Below are positions 12,373-49,924 of a DNA stretch of 64,000 nucleotides, piece by piece. The notes under the pieces were generated by a model. The model saw nothing but the letters and a program-made list of their open reading frames with translations, ran no database searches and was not told the DNA's origin. Where the stretch lies: positions 620,001 to 684,000 of the forward strand of contig NZ_MDVN01000022.1 of assembly GCF_002741945.1 (NCBI RefSeq), in the 5' to 3' direction. The translations under genes were made by a program, and so were the position numbers. The stretch comes from Gaetbulibacter sp. 4G1 (lineage in GTDB: Bacteria; Bacteroidota; Bacteroidia; Flavobacteriales; Flavobacteriaceae). Within the stretch, counting starts at the first letter, position 1; every line of letters begins with the position of its first letter.

Positions 12373-12445
12373 GACAAGGTGGCTGAATGGCTAAGGCTAC
12401 AGATTGCAAATCTGTTATTTATGAGTTCGATTCTCATCCTTGTCT
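12373..12445 (+). tRNA. Array tRNA 2: tRNA-Cys(GCA)
   Basis: Acceptor GACAAGG/CCTTGTC, anticodon arm ACAGA-TTGCAAA-TCTGT with anticodon GCA, T-loop TTCGATT. The discriminator base T is the identity base of cysteine tRNAs, which supports a functional origin. Confidence 0.88.
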
Positions 12446-12452
12446 CAAAAAT

Positions 12453-12524
12453 GATATTGTAGCTCAATGGTAGAGCAAGTAGCTGTTAACTACTAGGCTG
12501 AAAGTTCGAATCTTTCCAATATCG
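12453..12524 (+). tRNA. Array tRNA 3: tRNA-Asn(GTT)
   Basis: Acceptor GATATTG/CAATATC, D-stem GCTC/GAGC, anticodon arm AGTAG-CTGTTAA-CTACT (GTT), T-arm GAAAG-TTCGAAT-CTTTC. Discriminator G as in asparagine tRNAs. Confidence 0.88.
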
Positions 12525-12532
12525 CAAATTAT

Positions 12533-12605
12533 AGTACCGTAGTTCAATGGCTAGAATGCTCGACTGTCTATCGAGAAGTTGCGAGTTCGAATCTCGTCGG
12601 TACTG
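12533..12605 (+). tRNA. Array tRNA 4: tRNA-Asp(GTC)
   Basis: Acceptor AGTACCG/CGGTACT (first pair A-T), D-stem GTTC/GAAT, anticodon arm CTCGA-CTGTCTA-TCGAG (GTC), T-loop TTCGAAT. Discriminator G, the aspartate identity base. Confidence 0.87.
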
Positions 12606-12610
12606 CAAAT

Positions 12611-12683
12611 GCTCTATTAGCATAGTGGTTTAGTGCATCTGGTTTTCTCCCAGAAGACAAGGGTTCGATTCCCTTATAGAGTA
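12611..12683 (+). tRNA. Array tRNA 5: tRNA-Glu(TTC)
   Basis: Acceptor GCTCTAT/ATAGAGT with a G1-U72 wobble, anticodon arm TCTGG-TTTTCTC-CCAGA, anticodon TTC. Positions 37 and 38 are T and C, unusual for this isotype. D-stem is only 3 bp (GCA/TGC). T-loop TTCGATT. Confidence 0.82.
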
Positions 12684-12689
12684 CAATAA

Positions 12690-12762
12690 TGAGGCATAGC
12701 TCAGTGGTAAGAGTGTCACGTTTACATCGTGAAAGTCATAGGTTCGAATCCTATTGTCTCAA
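12690..12762 (+). tRNA. Array tRNA 6: tRNA-Val(TAC)
   Basis: Acceptor TGAGGCA/TGTCTCA (one G-U), D-stem GCTC/GAGT, anticodon arm TCACG-TTTACAT-CGTGA (TAC), T-arm ATAGG-TTCGAAT-CCTAT. Discriminator A. Confidence 0.85.
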
Positions 12763-12768
12763 CAAAAT

Positions 12769-12841
12769 TGAGGTATAGCTTAATTGTTAAAGCACCGAGC
12801 TTTTAACTCGGGTGATTTAGGTTCAACTCCTAATACCTCAA
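12769..12841 (+). tRNA. Array tRNA 7: tRNA-Lys(TTT)
   Basis: Acceptor TGAGGTA/TACCTCA, anticodon arm CCGAG-CTTTTAA-CTCGG (TTT). The D-loop AATTGTTA lacks the GG pair and the T-loop is TTCAACT, so the usual D-loop/T-loop contact is altered on both sides. Confidence 0.82.
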
Positions 12842-12847
12842 CAACAT

Positions 12848-12920
12848 GCAGGAATGGCGAAATGGCAAACGCACTCGACTTAGAATTGAGAAACTGGGAG
12901 TTCGAATCTCTCTTCCTGTA
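12848..12920 (+). tRNA. Array tRNA 8: tRNA-Leu(TAG) with a short variable loop
   Basis: Acceptor GCAGGAA/TTCCTGT (G1-U72), D-stem GCG/CGC, anticodon arm CTCGA-CTTAGAA-TTGAG (TAG), T-loop TTCGAAT. The variable region is only AAACT (5 nt), whereas bacterial leucine tRNAs normally have a long variable arm. Confidence 0.8.
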
Positions 12921-12921
12921 C

Positions 12922-12985
12922 GAAGTAAGGAAGAAGATAAGAAGTTTATGCTGAGCGAAGTCGAAGTAAATCTCTCTTCCTGTAC
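12922..12985 (+). repeat. Insertion that duplicates the 3' end of tRNA-Leu(TAG)
   Basis: Between tRNAs 8 and 9, about 60 nt ends with a second copy of ATCTCTCTTCCTGTAC, the 3' end of tRNA 8. The inserted part contains GCTGAGCGAAGTCGAAG, which I recognise as a short dispersed flavobacterial repeat. It looks like a small insertion at the tRNA 3' end. Confidence 0.6.
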
Positions 12986-12991
12986 CATGAT

Positions 12992-13065
12992 GCTCCACTA
13001 GCCCAACTGGGAGAGGCAACAGTTTTAAGCGCTGTTAAGTCCAAGTTCGAATCTTGGGTGGAGTA
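12992..13065 (+). tRNA. Array tRNA 9: tRNA-Leu(TAA) with a short variable loop
   Basis: Acceptor GCTCCAC/GTGGAGT (G1-U72), D-stem GCC/GGC, anticodon arm ACAGT-TTTAAGC-GCTGT (TAA, G37), T-arm CCAAG-TTCGAAT-CTTGG. Variable region TAAGT, 5 nt, again atypical for leucine. Confidence 0.8.
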
Positions 13066-13070
13066 CACAT

Positions 13071-13143
13071 AAGCTTATGGTGTAATTGGATAGCACTCAA
13101 GAATACGACTCTTGAAGTATGGGTTCGAGTCCTGTTAAGCTTA
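13071..13143 (+). tRNA. Array tRNA 10: tRNA-Arg(ACG)
   Basis: Acceptor AAGCTTA/TAAGCTT, D-stem GTG/CAC, anticodon arm CAAGA-ATACGAC-TCTTG (ACG), T-loop TTCGAGT. Positions 32 and 38 (A and C) differ from the usual pyrimidine/A. Discriminator A. Confidence 0.8.
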
Positions 13144-13155
13144 CTAAAATAAAGA

Positions 13156-13225
13156 GTATCTATAGTGTAATGGCTCGCACGGGAGGTAAATCCACCCAGA
13201 TCAAGTTCGAATCTTGATAGATACT
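13156..13225 (+). tRNA. Array tRNA 11: tRNA-like, anticodon not assignable
   Basis: Acceptor GTATCTA/TAGATAC (extendable by two pairs), D-stem GTG/CAC, T-arm TCAAG-TTCGAAT-CTTGA. The anticodon arm GGGAGG-TAAAT-CCACCC has an internal A-A mismatch. Depending on the register it reads AAA, TCC or no normal loop. The T discriminator would suit glycine. 70 nt long. Confidence 0.7.
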
Positions 13226-13234
13226 CAAAAAACT

Positions 13235-39069: not shown

Positions 39070-39273
39070 TTATGCTACGTTTTCTACTTCTTCTGAGTTG
39101 TCAATTAAAACTTGACCTCTGTAATATAGTTTCCCTTCATGCCAGTGTGCTCTGTGATATAAGTGAGCTTCACCTGTTGTTGGGCATGTAGCAATCTGTG
39201 GCGCAGTTGCTTTATAATGTGTTCTTCTTTTATCTCTTCTTGTTTTAGAGATTTTTCTTTTAGGATGTGCCAT
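39070..39273 (-). CDS. rpmF: 50S ribosomal protein L32
   Basis: 67 residues, starting [20 protein letters not shown], the canonical L32 N-terminus, with [17 protein letters not shown] in the middle. The zinc-ribbon cysteines of some L32 forms are reduced to one. It lies 8 nt after the DUF177 gene, the normal arrangement. Confidence 0.97.
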
Positions 39274-39281
39274 TTTTTATA

Positions 39282-39827
39282 TTATTTATCCGTTAATAAT
39301 TTCTTTAATGTATTCCATCGAGGGTCAATTTCCTCGTTAGTGTCTTTATTTTCTTTAAGCTTTGGGCTTAATTCTTCTAGTTTTTCAAGTATTTCTGAGT
39401 TTAGTGTACCATCTTCAATTCCAGGGTGTACACGCTTGATTGGTACAGAAAGTACAATTAATTCGTATATATATTGTTGGATACTAATCTCGTAAGTTCC
39501 ATGAGGAACAATTAGAATATCAATGTTTTCATCATTATATTCATCTCCAAACTTAACCACTAAATCAAATTCATTTTTAATAGTTTGATTAAATGGTTCG
39601 TTTGTTAAATCGCAATTAATATTAACATACCCTGAAGCTTTAAAGTGTAACTCTAGTAGTGTTGTTTTTTTTTCTAATTCAACATCAACTTGAATGTTTA
39701 CATCATTAAACTCCTCATACTCAAAATGCTCAAAGAACGTTTGCTCAATTTTATACTCAAAATGATGCTTCCCTATCTTTAACCCTACAAATGGAATTGT
39801 AAACTCTTTCAATGGCTTCATTATCAC
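39282..39827 (-). CDS. DUF177 (YceD-like) protein
   Basis: 181 residues, acidic. It has the conserved central element NINCDLTNEPFNQTIKNEFD (normally CxRCL-like; here one Cys is kept) and ends with DPRWNTLKKLL, a strongly conserved tail of the family. YceD-type proteins always precede rpmF and are linked to large-subunit rRNA/ribosome assembly. Confidence 0.88.
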   Translation of the reverse strand: MIMKPLKEFTIPFVGLKIGKHHFEYKIEQTFFEHFEYEEFNDVNIQVDVELEKKTTLLELHFKASGYVNINCDLTNEPFNQTIKNEFDLVVKFGDEYNDENIDILIVPHGTYEISIQQYIYELIVLSVPIKRVHPGIEDGTLNSEILEKLEELSPKLKENKDTNEEIDPRWNTLKKLLTDK

Positions 39828-39895
39828 ATCTATTTTGAGCCTGCAAATATATAACTTTTTTATTTACTCAACTCTACTTATAAACATTTTTTTGT

Positions 39896-40942
39896 TTACA
39901 TCTTTTTTGGTGCTTTTTTTAACGGATTTGAAGTAAGTTGCTCGTAATCAAACCTGTTATTAAATATCTTTATGGCAGTAAACATGGCTTCTTTAAATGA
40001 GTTTTCATCAGCTAATCCTTTTCCTGCTATCTCATATGCTGTACCATGATCTGGAGATGTTCTAACTTTATTTAAGCCAGCTGTATAATTAACACCTTGT
40101 CCAAAAGATAATGTTTTAAATGGTATTAACCCTTGATCGTGATACGCTGCTATTATGGCATCAAAATTTTTGTAGTTGTTTGATCCAAAAAAACTATCGG
40201 CTGCATAAGGCCCGTAAACTAACTTGCCTTCATTTTTAATTTTTTCAAGTGTTGGTCTTAACACATCATCATCTTCACTACCAATTACTCCATTATCACC
40301 TGTATGAGGGTTAATACCTAAAACGGCAATTTTTGGTTTTCTTATTTTAAAATCTTTCTCAAGAGATTTATAAACAGTCTCTATTTTTTTAATAATTAAT
40401 TCTTCTGAGATATGCTCTACAATATCCTTTACAGGAACATGATCTGTCAACAATCCTACTCTTAAAGTATCATTTACCATAAACATTAGGCTTTCTCCTT
40501 CCAGTTCTTTAGCTAAATAATCGGTGTGCCCTGGGAAATTAAATACATCAGATTGTATATTGTGCTTATTAATAGGTGCGGTTACTAATACATCAATGGC
40601 ATTGTTTTTTAATGCTTTTGTTGCCGCTTGTAATGATTTAATAGCAAACTCACCTATTTTAACGTCTTCTTTTCCAAATTGTATTTCTACATGTTCGTTC
40701 CAACAATTCAATACATTAACTTTTCCATGAGCTAATTGCTCTATGTTTTTAATGTTATTTAAACTTATTGTCGATTTAAAATGCGTTTTTAAAAACCCAA
40801 TAGTTTTCGAAGAAGCAAATATTATTGGTGTGCAAAAATCTAAAATCCTATTATCTTCAAATGTTTTTAAAACAATTTCGCCACCAATACCATTTAAGTC
40901 TCCTATAGATATACCTACAATTATATTTTCTGCTTTCTTCAT
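39896..40942 (-). CDS. pdxA: 4-hydroxythreonine-4-phosphate dehydrogenase
   Basis: I start at ATG 40942 (348 residues, MKKAENIIVGISIGDLNGIG); the longer open frame adds 13 residues that do not fit the family. Metal ligands are recognisable in FPGHTDYLAKE (His), IAAYHDQGLIPFK (His) and RTSPDHGTAYEIAGK (His/Asp). It oxidises 4-phosphohydroxy-L-threonine in pyridoxal phosphate synthesis. Head of the operon with DUF177 and rpmF; divergent from ribE. Confidence 0.95.
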   Translation of the reverse strand: MKKAENIIVGISIGDLNGIGGEIVLKTFEDNRILDFCTPIIFASSKTIGFLKTHFKSTISLNNIKNIEQLAHGKVNVLNCWNEHVEIQFGKEDVKIGEFAIKSLQAATKALKNNAIDVLVTAPINKHNIQSDVFNFPGHTDYLAKELEGESLMFMVNDTLRVGLLTDHVPVKDIVEHISEELIIKKIETVYKSLEKDFKIRKPKIAVLGINPHTGDNGVIGSEDDDVLRPTLEKIKNEGKLVYGPYAADSFFGSNNYKNFDAIIAAYHDQGLIPFKTLSFGQGVNYTAGLNKVRTSPDHGTAYEIAGKGLADENSFKEAMFTAIKIFNNRFDYEQLTSNPLKKAPKKM

Positions 40943-47391: not shown

Positions 47392-48135
47392 TTGCTCATT
47401 CCATTCGAACCACAACTCTTTGGTTTCAATATCAATATTCATTTAGTTTTAGAATACTTAGCTTTTTTTATTGCCTATAGATATTATGTGGTTTTAAGAC
47501 GAAATAGTAATGATACTATTTCTTCAAATAATAGATTATCTATCATTCTGGGTGCTGCTTTAGGTGCTTTAGTAGGCTCACGGTTAATTGGTTTTTTAGA
47601 AAACCCAATGATTGAATTTTCTAAAGAAACCTTTATTCATTTACTCAACACCAAAACCATTATGGGTGGGCTGTTTGGTGGGTTGTTAGGCGTAGAGTTT
47701 GCTAAAAAGCGCATTAATGAAGCGCAATCTTCTGGTGATCTATTTGTGTTTCCAATTATTCTAGGCATTTTCATTGGTAGAATTGGTTGCTTTCTTTCTG
47801 GAACCAATGAGTTTACTTACGGCATAGAAACCACTTCCGTTTTTGGTATGAACCTAGGAGATGGTGTATTACGCCATCCAACATCCTTATATGAATTAGC
47901 ATTCCTTATTATTCTGTTTTTTAGTTTAAAACACATACAAAAACGTAATAGCTTAAAAAGTGGAGACTTATTTAAGTGGTTTATGGTTCTATACTTCGGC
48001 TTTAGGTTCTTTATAGAATTTCTAAAACCAAATGTGTTTTACATTCTAGGACTAAGCACTATTCAACTTTTATGTGTAATTTGTTGGTTCTATTATTCAA
48101 AATTTATCATTCAAAACATAAAATATGCCCGTTAG
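47392..48135 (+). CDS. Prolipoprotein diacylglyceryl transferase (Lgt) family protein, probably a paralogue
   Basis: 247 residues, TTG start, about seven membrane helices. Lgt signatures: LGALVGSRLIGFLE, GRIGCFLSGTNEFTYGIETT (the GRxGCFxxGxxxG/T loop), LRHPTSLYELAF (HPTxLYE) and YFGFRFFIEFLKPN (FRFxxE). True Lgt moves diacylglyceryl from phosphatidylglycerol to a Cys of lipoproteins. This copy is divergent and sits in an operon with a radical-SAM enzyme and two microproteins, so its acceptor may differ. It may not be the housekeeping copy. Confidence 0.8.
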   Translation: MLIPFEPQLFGFNINIHLVLEYLAFFIAYRYYVVLRRNSNDTISSNNRLSIILGAALGALVGSRLIGFLENPMIEFSKETFIHLLNTKTIMGGLFGGLLGVEFAKKRINEAQSSGDLFVFPIILGIFIGRIGCFLSGTNEFTYGIETTSVFGMNLGDGVLRHPTSLYELAFLIILFFSLKHIQKRNSLKSGDLFKWFMVLYFGFRFFIEFLKPNVFYILGLSTIQLLCVICWFYYSKFIIQNIKYAR

Positions 48136-49519
48136 AAAATATACCTATTATGATTTTACTTTAAGCCTATGTCCTGAATGCTTAAAACGGGTTGATGCCA
48201 AAATAGTTTTTGAAAACGATAAGGTTTATATGTTAAAACGATGTAATGATCATGGTAATTCTAAAGTGTTAATTGCCGATGATGTTGAATATTATAAAAA
48301 CATGCGAAACTACAATAAACCAAGTGAAACGCCTTATACATTCAATACCAAAACACATTATGGTTGCCCTTACGATTGTGGTTTGTGCCCAGACCATGAG
48401 CAACATTCTTGCTTAACAGTTGTGGAAGTAACCGATCGTTGCAATTTAACATGCCCAACTTGTTATGCTGGTTCTTCTCCAACCTATGGAAGGCACCGTA
48501 CTTTGGATGAAATAAAAATCATGCTCGATACTATTGTGAAAAACGAAAAAGAGCCTGATGTGGTTCAAATTTCTGGAGGAGAACCTACCATACACCCTCA
48601 GTTTTTTGAGATTTTAGATTATGCTAAATCGCTACCTATTCGGCATTTAATGTTGAACACAAACGGGATTAAAATCGCTAAAGACTTTGCTTTCGCAGAA
48701 CGACTTAAAAGTTATGCTCCTGATTTTGAAATTTATTTACAGTTTGATTCTTTTGAAAACAAAGTGCTACAAGAATTACGAGGTGCAGACTTGAATGATA
48801 TTCGCAAACAAGCGTTAAAAAACCTTAATAAACTGAACTTGTCTACAACCTTAGTTATAACTCTTCAAAAAGGTTTGAATGACCACGAAATTGGAAAAAC
48901 AATTAACTATGCGCTCCAACAGAAATGTGTTCGAGGTGTTACACTTCAGCCTACACAAATTGCAGGGCGATTAGATAATTTTAATCCAGAAACCGATCGC
49001 ATGACCTTAACCGAAGTACGCAGAAAAATATTAGAGCAAACCTCTATTTTTAATCCAGACGATTTGTTACCTGTACCCTGTAACCCCGATGCTTTAGTTA
49101 TGGGATATGCTCTAAAATTAGACGGTGAAGTATTTCCTTTAACACGATATATAAATCCGAATGATTTATTAGATAATAGCAAAAACACCATTATTTACGA
49201 ACAAGATGAAAACCTTCATGGAAAGATGATTGAACTGTTTAGTACAGGGAATTCTGTTGAAGTGGCTGAAGAAAACTTAAAATCTATCATGTGTTGTCTT
49301 CCAAATATTGATGCTCCAAATCTGGGTTACGACAATTTATTTCGTATTATTATAATGCAATTCATTGATGCTTATAATTTTGATGTACGGGCAATTAAAA
49401 AATCGTGTGTACATATTGTAGATAAAGACAATAAAATTATTCCGTTTGAAACGATGAATTTGTTTTATCGGGATGATAAGAAGGAGCGATTAGAGGAATT
49501 AAGAAATGAAGTCATATGA
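48125..49519 (+). CDS. Radical SAM protein, tetraether-synthase-like (MJ0619 type)
   Basis: 464 residues. The N-terminal part has a rubredoxin-like pair (SLCPECLKRVDA, then MLKRCNDHG), followed by the hallmark YGCPYDCGLCPDHEQHSC, and then the radical-SAM cluster CNLTCPTCYAGS (CxxxCxxC). VQISGGEPTIHP is the SAM-binding GGEP. A C-terminal CC and Cys pair (KSIMCCLPNID; KKSCVHIVD) could bind another cluster. This layout is that of the MJ0619 family, whose archaeal members couple lipid tails (tetraether synthase). Overlaps the Lgt-like gene by 11 nt. Inference: it modifies a lipid or lipoprotein acyl chain. Confidence 0.82.
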   Translation: MPVRKYTYYDFTLSLCPECLKRVDAKIVFENDKVYMLKRCNDHGNSKVLIADDVEYYKNMRNYNKPSETPYTFNTKTHYGCPYDCGLCPDHEQHSCLTVVEVTDRCNLTCPTCYAGSSPTYGRHRTLDEIKIMLDTIVKNEKEPDVVQISGGEPTIHPQFFEILDYAKSLPIRHLMLNTNGIKIAKDFAFAERLKSYAPDFEIYLQFDSFENKVLQELRGADLNDIRKQALKNLNKLNLSTTLVITLQKGLNDHEIGKTINYALQQKCVRGVTLQPTQIAGRLDNFNPETDRMTLTEVRRKILEQTSIFNPDDLLPVPCNPDALVMGYALKLDGEVFPLTRYINPNDLLDNSKNTIIYEQDENLHGKMIELFSTGNSVEVAEENLKSIMCCLPNIDAPNLGYDNLFRIIIMQFIDAYNFDVRAIKKSCVHIVDKDNKIIPFETMNLFYRDDKKERLEELRNEVI

Positions 49520-49722
49520 CGCACTTTTTAGAAATAGGTAATGGTATTATATGGATGATTCTAATTTTTTTAATTTTAGCATTAAGTCCTGCAATAATAA
49601 TGACAATTATAGGTTTTGCAATTAAAAAGAACAAGCCTAAATCTGCCAAAGTATTATTTATAATTGCTACCGCTTACACCATCATAGGACTAGGGGTTTG
49701 TGGCGCAATATTATCTAGTTAA
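49516..49722 (+). CDS. 68-residue membrane microprotein, paralogue 1
   Basis: ATG overlaps the radical-SAM stop (ATGA). Two hydrophobic helices (IIWMILIFLILALSPAIIMTIIGFAI and VLFIIATAYTIIGLGVCGAIL, cited in part) are separated by KKNKPKSAK. Closely similar to the next gene, indicating a tandem duplication. Unknown function; it may anchor or assist the enzymes of this operon. Confidence 0.72.
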   Translation: MTHFLEIGNGIIWMILIFLILALSPAIIMTIIGFAIKKNKPKSAKVLFIIATAYTIIGLGVCGAILSS

Positions 49723-49723
49723 T

Positions 49724-49924
49724 ATGATTCTTTTAAGCCCAAATATGAATTTAGATGGTTTAATTTATTTAATTATTGCCATTATGTTTGGTCCAGCTAT
49801 TCTATTAACTATTGTTGGGTTTGCCATACTCAAAAAAAACAAAAAAGCAGCAAAAGTGCTGTTTATTCTTGCTGCCGTATACGTAATAATAAGCCTGGGC
49901 ATTTGCGGCAGCATGATGATGTAA
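49724..49924 (+). CDS. 66-residue membrane microprotein, paralogue 2
   Basis: ATG at 49724, 1 nt after the previous stop. Shares GFAI-KKNK-AKVLFI-A-Y-II-LG-CG with paralogue 1 in the same order. Two membrane helices. Last gene of the Lgt-like/radical-SAM operon. Confidence 0.72.
   Translation: MILLSPNMNLDGLIYLIIAIMFGPAILLTIVGFAILKKNKKAAKVLFILAAVYVIISLGICGSMMM

Follow-up and report, generated by a model that had tools for sequence, protein, structure and literature searches.

The four-gene element analysed here lies on the forward strand at positions 47392-49924 of a 64,000-nucleotide stretch of Gaetbulibacter sp. 4G1 DNA (contig NZ_MDVN01000022.1, positions 620,001 to 684,000; the window, numbered from its first letter). 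It encodes a divergent paralog of prolipoprotein diacylglyceryl transferase (Lgt2), a radical S-adenosylmethionine (SAM) protein related to the Tes and TrsS families (rSAM) and two small membrane proteins (microproteins). We propose, tentatively and at somewhat less than an even chance, that Lgt2 places a diacylglyceryl group on a cysteine in the tail of the microproteins, and that the rSAM modifies the lipid. The tail cysteine, which does not appear in an earlier note made from the letters of the window, is the strongest mechanistic lead. The genes are as follows:

47392..48135, forward strand: Lgt2, divergent prolipoprotein diacylglyceryl transferase paralog (247 aa, TTG start; PF01790, fold match, own clade)
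48125..49519, forward strand: Tes/TrsS-related rSAM (464 aa; Radical_SAM and Zn_ribbon_HMPTM domains)
49516..49722, forward strand: microprotein 1 (68 aa, two predicted transmembrane helices, end ..YTIIGLGVC-GAILSS)
49724..49924, forward strand: microprotein 2 (66 aa, two predicted transmembrane helices, end ..YVIISLGIC-GSMMM)

All four genes were present where the earlier note had placed them. The overlap that it had noticed between the Lgt2 and rSAM genes is real and measures 11 nt; some overlap was found in 60 of 99 related loci, and the order Lgt2, rSAM, microproteins was common to most related loci. The microproteins, described there as duplicated two-helix proteins, are 41% identical, with two predicted helices each. 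There is no ATG or GTG upstream in frame of the Lgt2 start at 47392; TTG was also the start chosen by script in 69 of 79 related loci, 57 of which offered no ATG or GTG. For microprotein 2, the in-frame ATG at 49724 was preferred over the GTG at 49700 given in the mechanical list of open reading frames (ORFs).

The distribution of the two enzymes was surveyed in 296 genomes of Bacteroidota. An Lgt2 profile scored at least 146 bits in 26 genomes, with a clean gap to the next genome (130), and PF23545, the zinc ribbon of the rSAM, was over its cut-off in 26 genomes, one being G066, whose rSAM is of the Tes type. An rSAM was present in 25 of the 26 Lgt2 genomes, and all 25 genomes with an rSAM under the Tes cut-off carried Lgt2; G066, with its rSAM over that cut-off, had none. 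The association gave a Fisher p of about 5e-34 (G066 counted as rSAM without Lgt2), a value that overstates independence because the surveyed genomes are related. The genes were adjoining or within about 1.2 kb of each other in 23 of the 25 genomes, and on different contigs in G272 and G034, both retained. Counted by hand, two or more Lgts were present in 25 of the 26 rSAM genomes, compared with 41 of the 270 others.

Outside this survey, a plasmid collection was searched with the proteins of Mycobacterium branderi. The rSAM had four other matches at E 1e-30 or better, and Lgt2 was matched at E 1e-10 or better in three records (M. branderi itself, M. avium and Nonomuraea), each of these Lgt2 genes lying within about 1 kb of an rSAM gene. 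The deep branches of the rSAM and Lgt2 trees agreed: G096 grouped with the Actinomycetota (support 100/100 for rSAM, 99/95 for Lgt2), G121 with G156 (99/99 and 98/95), and the latter pair joined the main group (87/81 and 93/82). Lgt2 and rSAM thus seem to have moved and diverged together. Within the main group, the branching was poorly resolved and differed between the trees.

The cysteines proposed as acceptors are located as follows:

49699..49701, forward strand: tail Cys62 of microprotein 1
49904..49906, forward strand: tail Cys61 of microprotein 2

In 137 small transmembrane ORFs located after the rSAM gene in the close relatives L003-L091 (entries void for minus-strand loci, among them L084, L087, L088, L090 and L091), the C-terminus followed the pattern Y-x-I-I-(S/G)-L-G-(I/V)-C-G, with Tyr, Gly, Cys and Gly among the best kept residues (91 to 93% each). 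All of the 80 correctly oriented loci (L003-L082) had a small transmembrane ORF, and [GS]-x-C occurred in the last 20 residues of 123 of 132 such ORFs. Within 450 nt after the rSAM gene the tail cysteine was present in 123 of 129 small transmembrane ORFs, against 12 of 171 at other places of these loci, and a tail-cysteine protein was found in that interval in 80 of 80 loci. At least five of the 12 control ORFs belong to the module (two microproteins in L009; Lgt2 sub-ORFs in L036, L066 and L075), and the control ORF L050 7020-7226 resembles a microprotein. The L009 module is followed, about 5 kb downstream, by two further tail-cysteine microproteins (L009 12173-12574).

Across the branches, 28 of 29 modules were found to have a small transmembrane protein whose last helix is followed by a cysteine (usually in G/S-x-C) and then a few closing residues. 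The count was built up from a rule scan (23 of 27), to which G096 (by eye), M. avium (by a looser rule) and G212 (from contig C147) were added to give 26 of 27, and then Nonomuraea and Persicobacter. Spurious ORFs of the rule scan were C-terminal parts of Lgt2 (window 47662-48135, L201 3488-3961 and L209 3504-3977), and L196 1559-1705 is probably spurious too; each genome affected has another match. Tails of distant modules, such as ..FIAGGCIC-GFNL (G012), ..LLQGLC-ALGIFVN (G133), ..VIGLGAC-AVILANG (G138), ..LIFGSC-LSILFNPK (G156), ..ITVGVC-TGLNPAMYTGA (M. branderi) and ..LLSGGMC-IFLPQPL (G096), share the cysteine and differ in other residues. In 20 tails, hand-picked across branches rather than drawn, the cysteine always came after the last helix and, itself included, lay 5-15 residues from the C-terminus; residue -2 was G or S in 18, the region before the last helix was net positive in 19, and the net charge of the tail was between -1 and +1. 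This charge pattern suggests that the cysteine lies on the side where Lgt works.

More than one microprotein copy was present in the window, G138, G091, G231, G212, M. branderi and M. avium. A profile of the flavobacterial microproteins found 10 of the 296 genomes, all 10 with the module, and missed the other 15 module genomes. The microproteins have no N-terminal signal peptide bearing the cysteine, and their tails (LGVC, LGIC) depart from the lipobox [LV][ASTVI][GAS]C. With the looser rule, a tail-cysteine protein was found in none of three loci in which a related rSAM is paired with a methyltransferase, and in four of six Lgt-type modules (M. avium, M. branderi, Nonomuraea and Persicobacter; not in G096, nor in the two stretches of G034). 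At the Tes-type locus of G066 the same rule gave one 45-aa match, judged to be chance.

Lgt2 matched the Pfam family LGT (PF01790) at 91.8 bits (cut-off 24.9) and stayed under the cut-offs of the curated equivalogs (TIGR00544, 43.4 against 118.9 bits; NF000778, 51.1 against 334 bits). Its predicted model (mean predicted local distance difference test score, pLDDT, 74.6) was matched to E. coli Lgt (5azb) with Z 12.4 and a root mean square deviation of 5.2 over 238 residues; helical proteins can often give Z values below about 13, and the gap to the next row (6.3) is what decides. With 98/98 support, the Lgt2 proteins, among them the "divergent Lgt" of the earlier note, grouped as a clade of their own, separate from the six other Lgts in the tree. 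The note had advised looking for a second, canonical lgt and had treated a sole copy in the operon as counting against its proposal: a canonical copy was found on contig C12 of genome G000 (39123-39992; 184.9 bits against 91.2 for the operon copy), with Tyr26, His103, Arg143, Asn146, Glu151, Gly154, Arg239 and Glu243 (E. coli numbering).

Active-site positions were compared in a 97-row alignment (97 of 103 matches, 94 distinct, with the window's own gene present twice, as L002 and L083). Outside it were L035, L066 and L075 (fragments by the length rule) and L105, L106 and L107, that is, G121, G156 and G096, which were inspected separately. The main positions in the window are as follows:

47440..47442, forward strand: His17, at the site of the essential Tyr26 of E. 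coli Lgt (His in 97 of 97 rows)
47779..47781, forward strand: Arg130, at the site of Arg143 of E. coli Lgt, in the phospholipid site (97 of 97 rows and all rows of the wider set)
47788..47790, forward strand: Cys133, at the site of the essential Asn146 of E. coli Lgt (97 of 97 rows)
48004..48006, forward strand: Arg205, at the site of Arg239 of E. coli Lgt (97 of 97 rows)

Arg143, Glu202, Tyr235 and Arg239 were retained in every row, and Glu243 was Glu in 92 rows and Asp in five; His at site 103 and Glu at site 151 were each found in 0 of 97. The residues assigned to Gly154 and to the His103 site depend on the alignment (site 103 being F/L/A in the 97 rows and M/V/L/A/T in the wider set), with His in neither. 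In the wider set, site 26 was Tyr in G121 and G156 and Gln in G017; the actinobacterial Lgt2s again had His at 26 and Cys at 146 (Nonomuraea by eye). According to the literature (papers are cited here and below by PMC number), E. coli Lgt requires Tyr26, His103, Arg143, Asn146, Gly154 and Arg239 (PMC13251419). Its second phospholipid site is lined by Arg143, Glu202, Tyr235 and Arg239, its first-site phospholipid contacts are Tyr26 and Glu151, and the His103 motif is the proposed lipobox binder (PMC4728403). By this residue pattern, Lgt2 has kept the second phospholipid site and changed its first-site and acceptor contacts.

Asn146-to-Cys was also seen in the Lgts of G152, G168, G172 and G267 (L187-L190), each the single PF01790 match of its genome and each with Tyr or Phe at site 103. 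Some relatives thus seem to manage with a main Lgt that departs from the standard, and this change alone is not proof of lost function. It was rejected as a mark of Lgt2 because it is shared with these four; judged from the aligned residues, Tyr26-to-His is the better mark, though G121 and G156 (Tyr) and G017 (Gln) differ.

The rSAM matched Radical_SAM at 91.8 bits (cut-off 29.5), Zn_ribbon_HMPTM (PF23545) at 69.7 bits (cut-off 27) and the structure of MJ0619/Tes (PDB 7tol) at E=1.7e-70. It belongs to the wider MJ0619/HMPTM superfamily, in keeping with the MJ0619-type family named in the earlier note; a placement outside the MJ0619 family, which the note had counted against itself, did not occur at that level. 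The Pfam name HMPTM goes back to an earlier view of MJ0619 as a pterin-methylating enzyme. Among curated families, TrsS (NF045646) gave 327.9 bits (cut-off 490) and Tes (NF045702) 290.7 bits (cut-off 450). The predicted model had a mean pLDDT of 47.6 (input: the window sequence and 12 others at 89-94% identity), and the following domain features are read from sequence:

48170..48253, forward strand: rubredoxin-type motif C16-x2-C19-x20-C40-x2-H43, with the spacing of Tes (C9-x2-C12-x20-C33-x2-H36)
48365..48388, forward strand: N-terminal auxiliary cluster motif C81-x3-C85-x2-C88, not in the Actinomycetota/G096 branch
48440..48463, forward strand: radical SAM cluster motif C106-x3-C110-x2-C113, in all 27 aligned rows
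49355..49357, forward strand: Met411, at the position of Met439 of Tes (a labile cluster ligand) and lost in G121, G156 and Actinomycetota/G096
49415..49417, forward strand: Ile431, aligned with Tyr459 of Tes
49448..49450, forward strand: Glu442, aligned with the Cys of Tes IPFC

The cysteine patterns given in the earlier note (CPEC, CPYDCGLCP and CNLTCPTC) occur exactly, with CPYDCGLCP (residues 81-89) as the N-auxiliary motif and CNLTCPTC (106-113) as the radical cluster motif. Both N-terminal features of Tes, the rubredoxin motif and the N-auxiliary CX3CX2C followed by His, are thus present. These motifs, Met439 and Tyr459 are described in PMC9433317, where Tyr459 is completely conserved across 1000 archaeal Tes homologues; the IPFC cysteine we infer to be a cluster ligand of Tes. 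The C-terminal part of the rSAM carries a CC motif foreign to Tes. In a tree of 27 proteins, with only two Tes rows as root, the rSAM fell outside the Tes branch (100/99); a branch with 95/82 support set all Lgt-paired rSAMs apart, the three methyltransferase-paired rSAMs falling outside it, and the long branches make this tree support rather than proof. All 25 module rSAMs scored under the Tes cut-off (22 of them at E 6.7e-91 at best; G121, G156 and G096 at 305.8, 281.8 and 149.1 bits). Of the earlier description as tetraether-synthase-like, then, the layout of shared motifs stands and membership does not, given the score, the missing Tyr459 and the position outside the Tes branch.

Several related proteins and loci were seen on the way. 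The rSAM of G066 (L150 6864-8321; 493.8 bits, E 4.8e-148) is over the Tes cut-off, which makes this genome a candidate producer of bacterial tetraether-type lipids. In L141, L144 and L145 (M. vanbaalenii and two haloarchaea) a methyltransferase gene follows the related rSAM gene with no adjoining Lgt; the two of these three methyltransferases that were run had DVU_1556 as their nearest curated family, under cut-off. A match of the rSAM to the anti-phage family pVip (PADLOC; 47.7 bits) covered residues 102-241, the general radical core, and a reading as anti-phage defence was rejected, only that common core being matched. The sets of G121 and G156 are larger (L147 7001-10588; L148 3435-6941), comprising the rSAM, an ICMT/PEMT-type membrane methyltransferase, a DUF4395 protein, Lgt2 and a small tail-cysteine protein; the methyltransferase and DUF4395 protein hint at further tailoring in that branch. 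The genes flanking the module (ABC permease, Dus, DUF4345, LepA) vary between related loci, and the closest named genomes with such loci are marine Flavobacteriaceae, for example Winogradskyella and Ichthyenterobacterium; Olleya and Algibacter are further carriers of the module. Elsewhere, the window holds a cluster of ten tRNA genes (12373-13226).

In the reading proposed here, the four genes would form one membrane module of acceptor, transferase and radical enzyme. The microproteins would be integral membrane proteins whose last helix mimics a lipoprotein signal peptide at the C-terminus, with a positive start inside the cell, a hydrophobic stretch and the cysteine (usually in G/S-x-C) at the outer face; it is on account of this shared order of parts that the microprotein is proposed as acceptor. 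Lgt2, as a dedicated paralog, would transfer diacylglyceryl from a phospholipid to the tail cysteine, and the changes in its active site would suit either the altered motif or a changed donor lipid. The attached lipid would remain on the intact, uncleaved transmembrane microprotein, since the residue before the cysteine is mostly not small and cleavage by signal peptidase II is not expected. The release of a short lipopeptide by that peptidase was set aside for the same reason (-1 not small in 14 of 20 tails). The rSAM would work on an acyl chain of the lipid at the cytoplasmic face, most likely ahead of the flip that brings the lipid to Lgt2; an effect on the donor chain is favoured because Tes, its best-studied relative, acts on the ends of lipid chains. 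The roles of the microprotein as acceptor and of Lgt2 as the matching transferase are suggested with the same reserve as the whole, also a little below even, and the rSAM step is considered less likely still. The envelope lipid or lipoprotein modification pathway put forward in the earlier note fits these findings, and the note is partly supported overall.

The proposal has several points against it. It was drawn from sequence, with the lipid and protein chemistry and the topology as predictions. Three residues that E. coli Lgt needs, Tyr26, His103 and Asn146, are absent from Lgt2 of the window lineage, so the enzyme could be inactive or act on another substrate; the changes at the first-site contacts Tyr26 and Glu151 mean that its donor may differ too. 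The residue at -1 is small in only 6 of the 20 tails, the other 14 being off the published lipobox at that position. A cytoplasmic rSAM and a periplasmic cysteine would sit on opposite sides of the membrane, so that the two steps would need a presumed lipid flip. G034 has the rSAM and Lgt2, with a tail-cysteine protein found near neither. A lone Lgt2 in G017 (L191 7653-8498), with Gln at site 26, occurs without an rSAM; no tail-cysteine protein was found near it, and it may be decaying. The methyltransferase-paired loci are a weak control because the looser rule missed G096, which has a tail-cysteine protein. Finally, the actinobacterial evidence comes from three records, and the 80 loci are close relatives.

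Other explanations were weighed against the same evidence. Lgt2 and the rSAM might make an unusual membrane lipid, for instance with joined or branched chains, the microproteins holding the enzymes together and their cysteine being structural or metal-binding. We consider this unlikely, though the most probable of the rivals: Tes and Mss both belong to the rSAM enzymes that couple lipids (PMC9433317, PMC13274423), residues of the acceptor and head-group region are missing from Lgt2, which may therefore not serve proteins, and the G121 and G156 sets include an ICMT/PEMT-type membrane methyltransferase. Such a pathway leaves unexplained why a tail cysteine is fixed in very different small proteins of two phyla, and why the transferase comes from a protein-lipidating family. 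Rather less probable is a system resembling those of ribosomally synthesized and post-translationally modified peptides (RiPPs), in which the rSAM would modify the cysteine or helix of the microprotein and Lgt2 would anchor or finish the product. Small ORFs beside rSAM genes are often precursors, and the microproteins are short with one fixed cysteine; however, the Pfam matches of the rSAM include no peptide-binding or SPASM domain, the microproteins are in the membrane with the cysteine probably outside, away from the cytoplasmic enzyme, and the best-studied relative, Tes, acts on lipids (PMC9433317).

Lgt2 might instead serve lipoproteins in general, as a second diacylglyceryl transferase whose range of donors or acceptors is modified and whose neighbours are loosely linked. 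In favour of this, 41 of the 270 rSAM-less genomes also have at least two Lgts (hand count), and Asn146-to-Cys occurs in the Lgts of four single-match genomes, so that lipoprotein lipidation seems to survive this change. We regard this as improbable, as Lgt2 forms a separate clade (98/98) and is without an rSAM in only 1 of 26 genomes. The rSAM is unlikely to be an ordinary tetraether synthase. Its cofactor motifs at the N-terminus and in the radical domain are those of Tes; it scores below the Tes cut-off, lies outside the Tes branch (100/99) and lacks Tyr459 and the IPFC cysteine, and the sole surveyed rSAM over that cut-off, in G066, is in a genome without Lgt2. A bacterial Tes making membrane-spanning tetraethers is therefore the least probable account given here, and by our estimate very improbable. 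A bolder form of our own proposal is also doubtful, only slightly less so than the general transferase: the uncleaved C-terminal diacylglyceryl-cysteine microproteins would be a new lipoprotein class in which the Tes-like rSAM welds acyl chains, either of the donor lipid or of two lipidated twins, giving a protein-bound lipid that is C-C linked to a further chain and possibly membrane-spanning.

In the usual bacterial lipoprotein, an N-terminal lipobox is followed by cleavage (PMC8048626). Should the tail cysteine be lipidated, lipid would be joined to protein in an unusual manner, and the picture of bacterial lipoproteins would need a second form, one that searches for N-terminal lipoboxes miss. 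Bacterial Tes homologues have been listed and guessed to make branched glycerol dialkyl glycerol tetraethers (brGDGTs) (PMC8941075, PMC11868695), and both Tes papers, in the parts cited, leave the role of bacterial Tes relatives open (PMC9433317, PMC8941075). Through the module, one branch of these relatives gains a specific partner enzyme and a candidate protein target whose one cysteine is fixed. A literature search, which did not cover bioRxiv or supplements, returned no description of the module or microproteins and none linking a second Lgt with a Tes-like rSAM; excerpts of PMC10470005 and PMC8939145 held nothing on the module. Each part belongs to a kind already known; neither the module nor the acceptor proposed for it was found described in the literature searched.

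Among known systems, Lgt (PF01790; 5azb) is like Lgt2 in fold and in Arg143, Glu202, Tyr235 and Arg239. Lgt2 differs in having His for Tyr26 and Cys for Asn146, in the loss of His103 and Glu151, in a shorter head region, and in being additional to a canonical Lgt in the same genome. The same pair of changes, Y26H and N146C, is reported for MSMEG_5408, the second Lgt of Mycobacterium smegmatis (PMC13251419). Tes (GDGT-MAS, for glycerol dialkyl glycerol tetraether; MJ0619, 7tol) has in common with the module rSAM the rubredoxin, N-auxiliary and radical cluster motifs, the Met439 position and the HMPTM zinc ribbon, whereas the module rSAM is without Tyr459, has Glu at the IPFC cysteine and an extra CC motif, and stands on a separate branch. 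TrsS, a radical SAM (seleno)protein (NF045646) listed in PMC13188914, is the top-scoring curated family, its cut-off being higher than the score of the module rSAM; the methyltransferase-paired relatives in haloarchaea and M. vanbaalenii have no Lgt annotated in the stretches shown. By description, the rSAM can also be likened to Mss, the bacterial membrane-spanning lipid synthase, a radical SAM enzyme that couples fatty acyl chains (PMC13274423, PMC11868695). The MYXO-CTERM/myxosortase system shares with the microproteins a C-terminal helix, an invariant cysteine and predicted lipidation; its order of parts is cysteine, helix, arginines (PMC11980579), whereas in the microproteins lysines or arginines come first, followed by the helix and then the cysteine.

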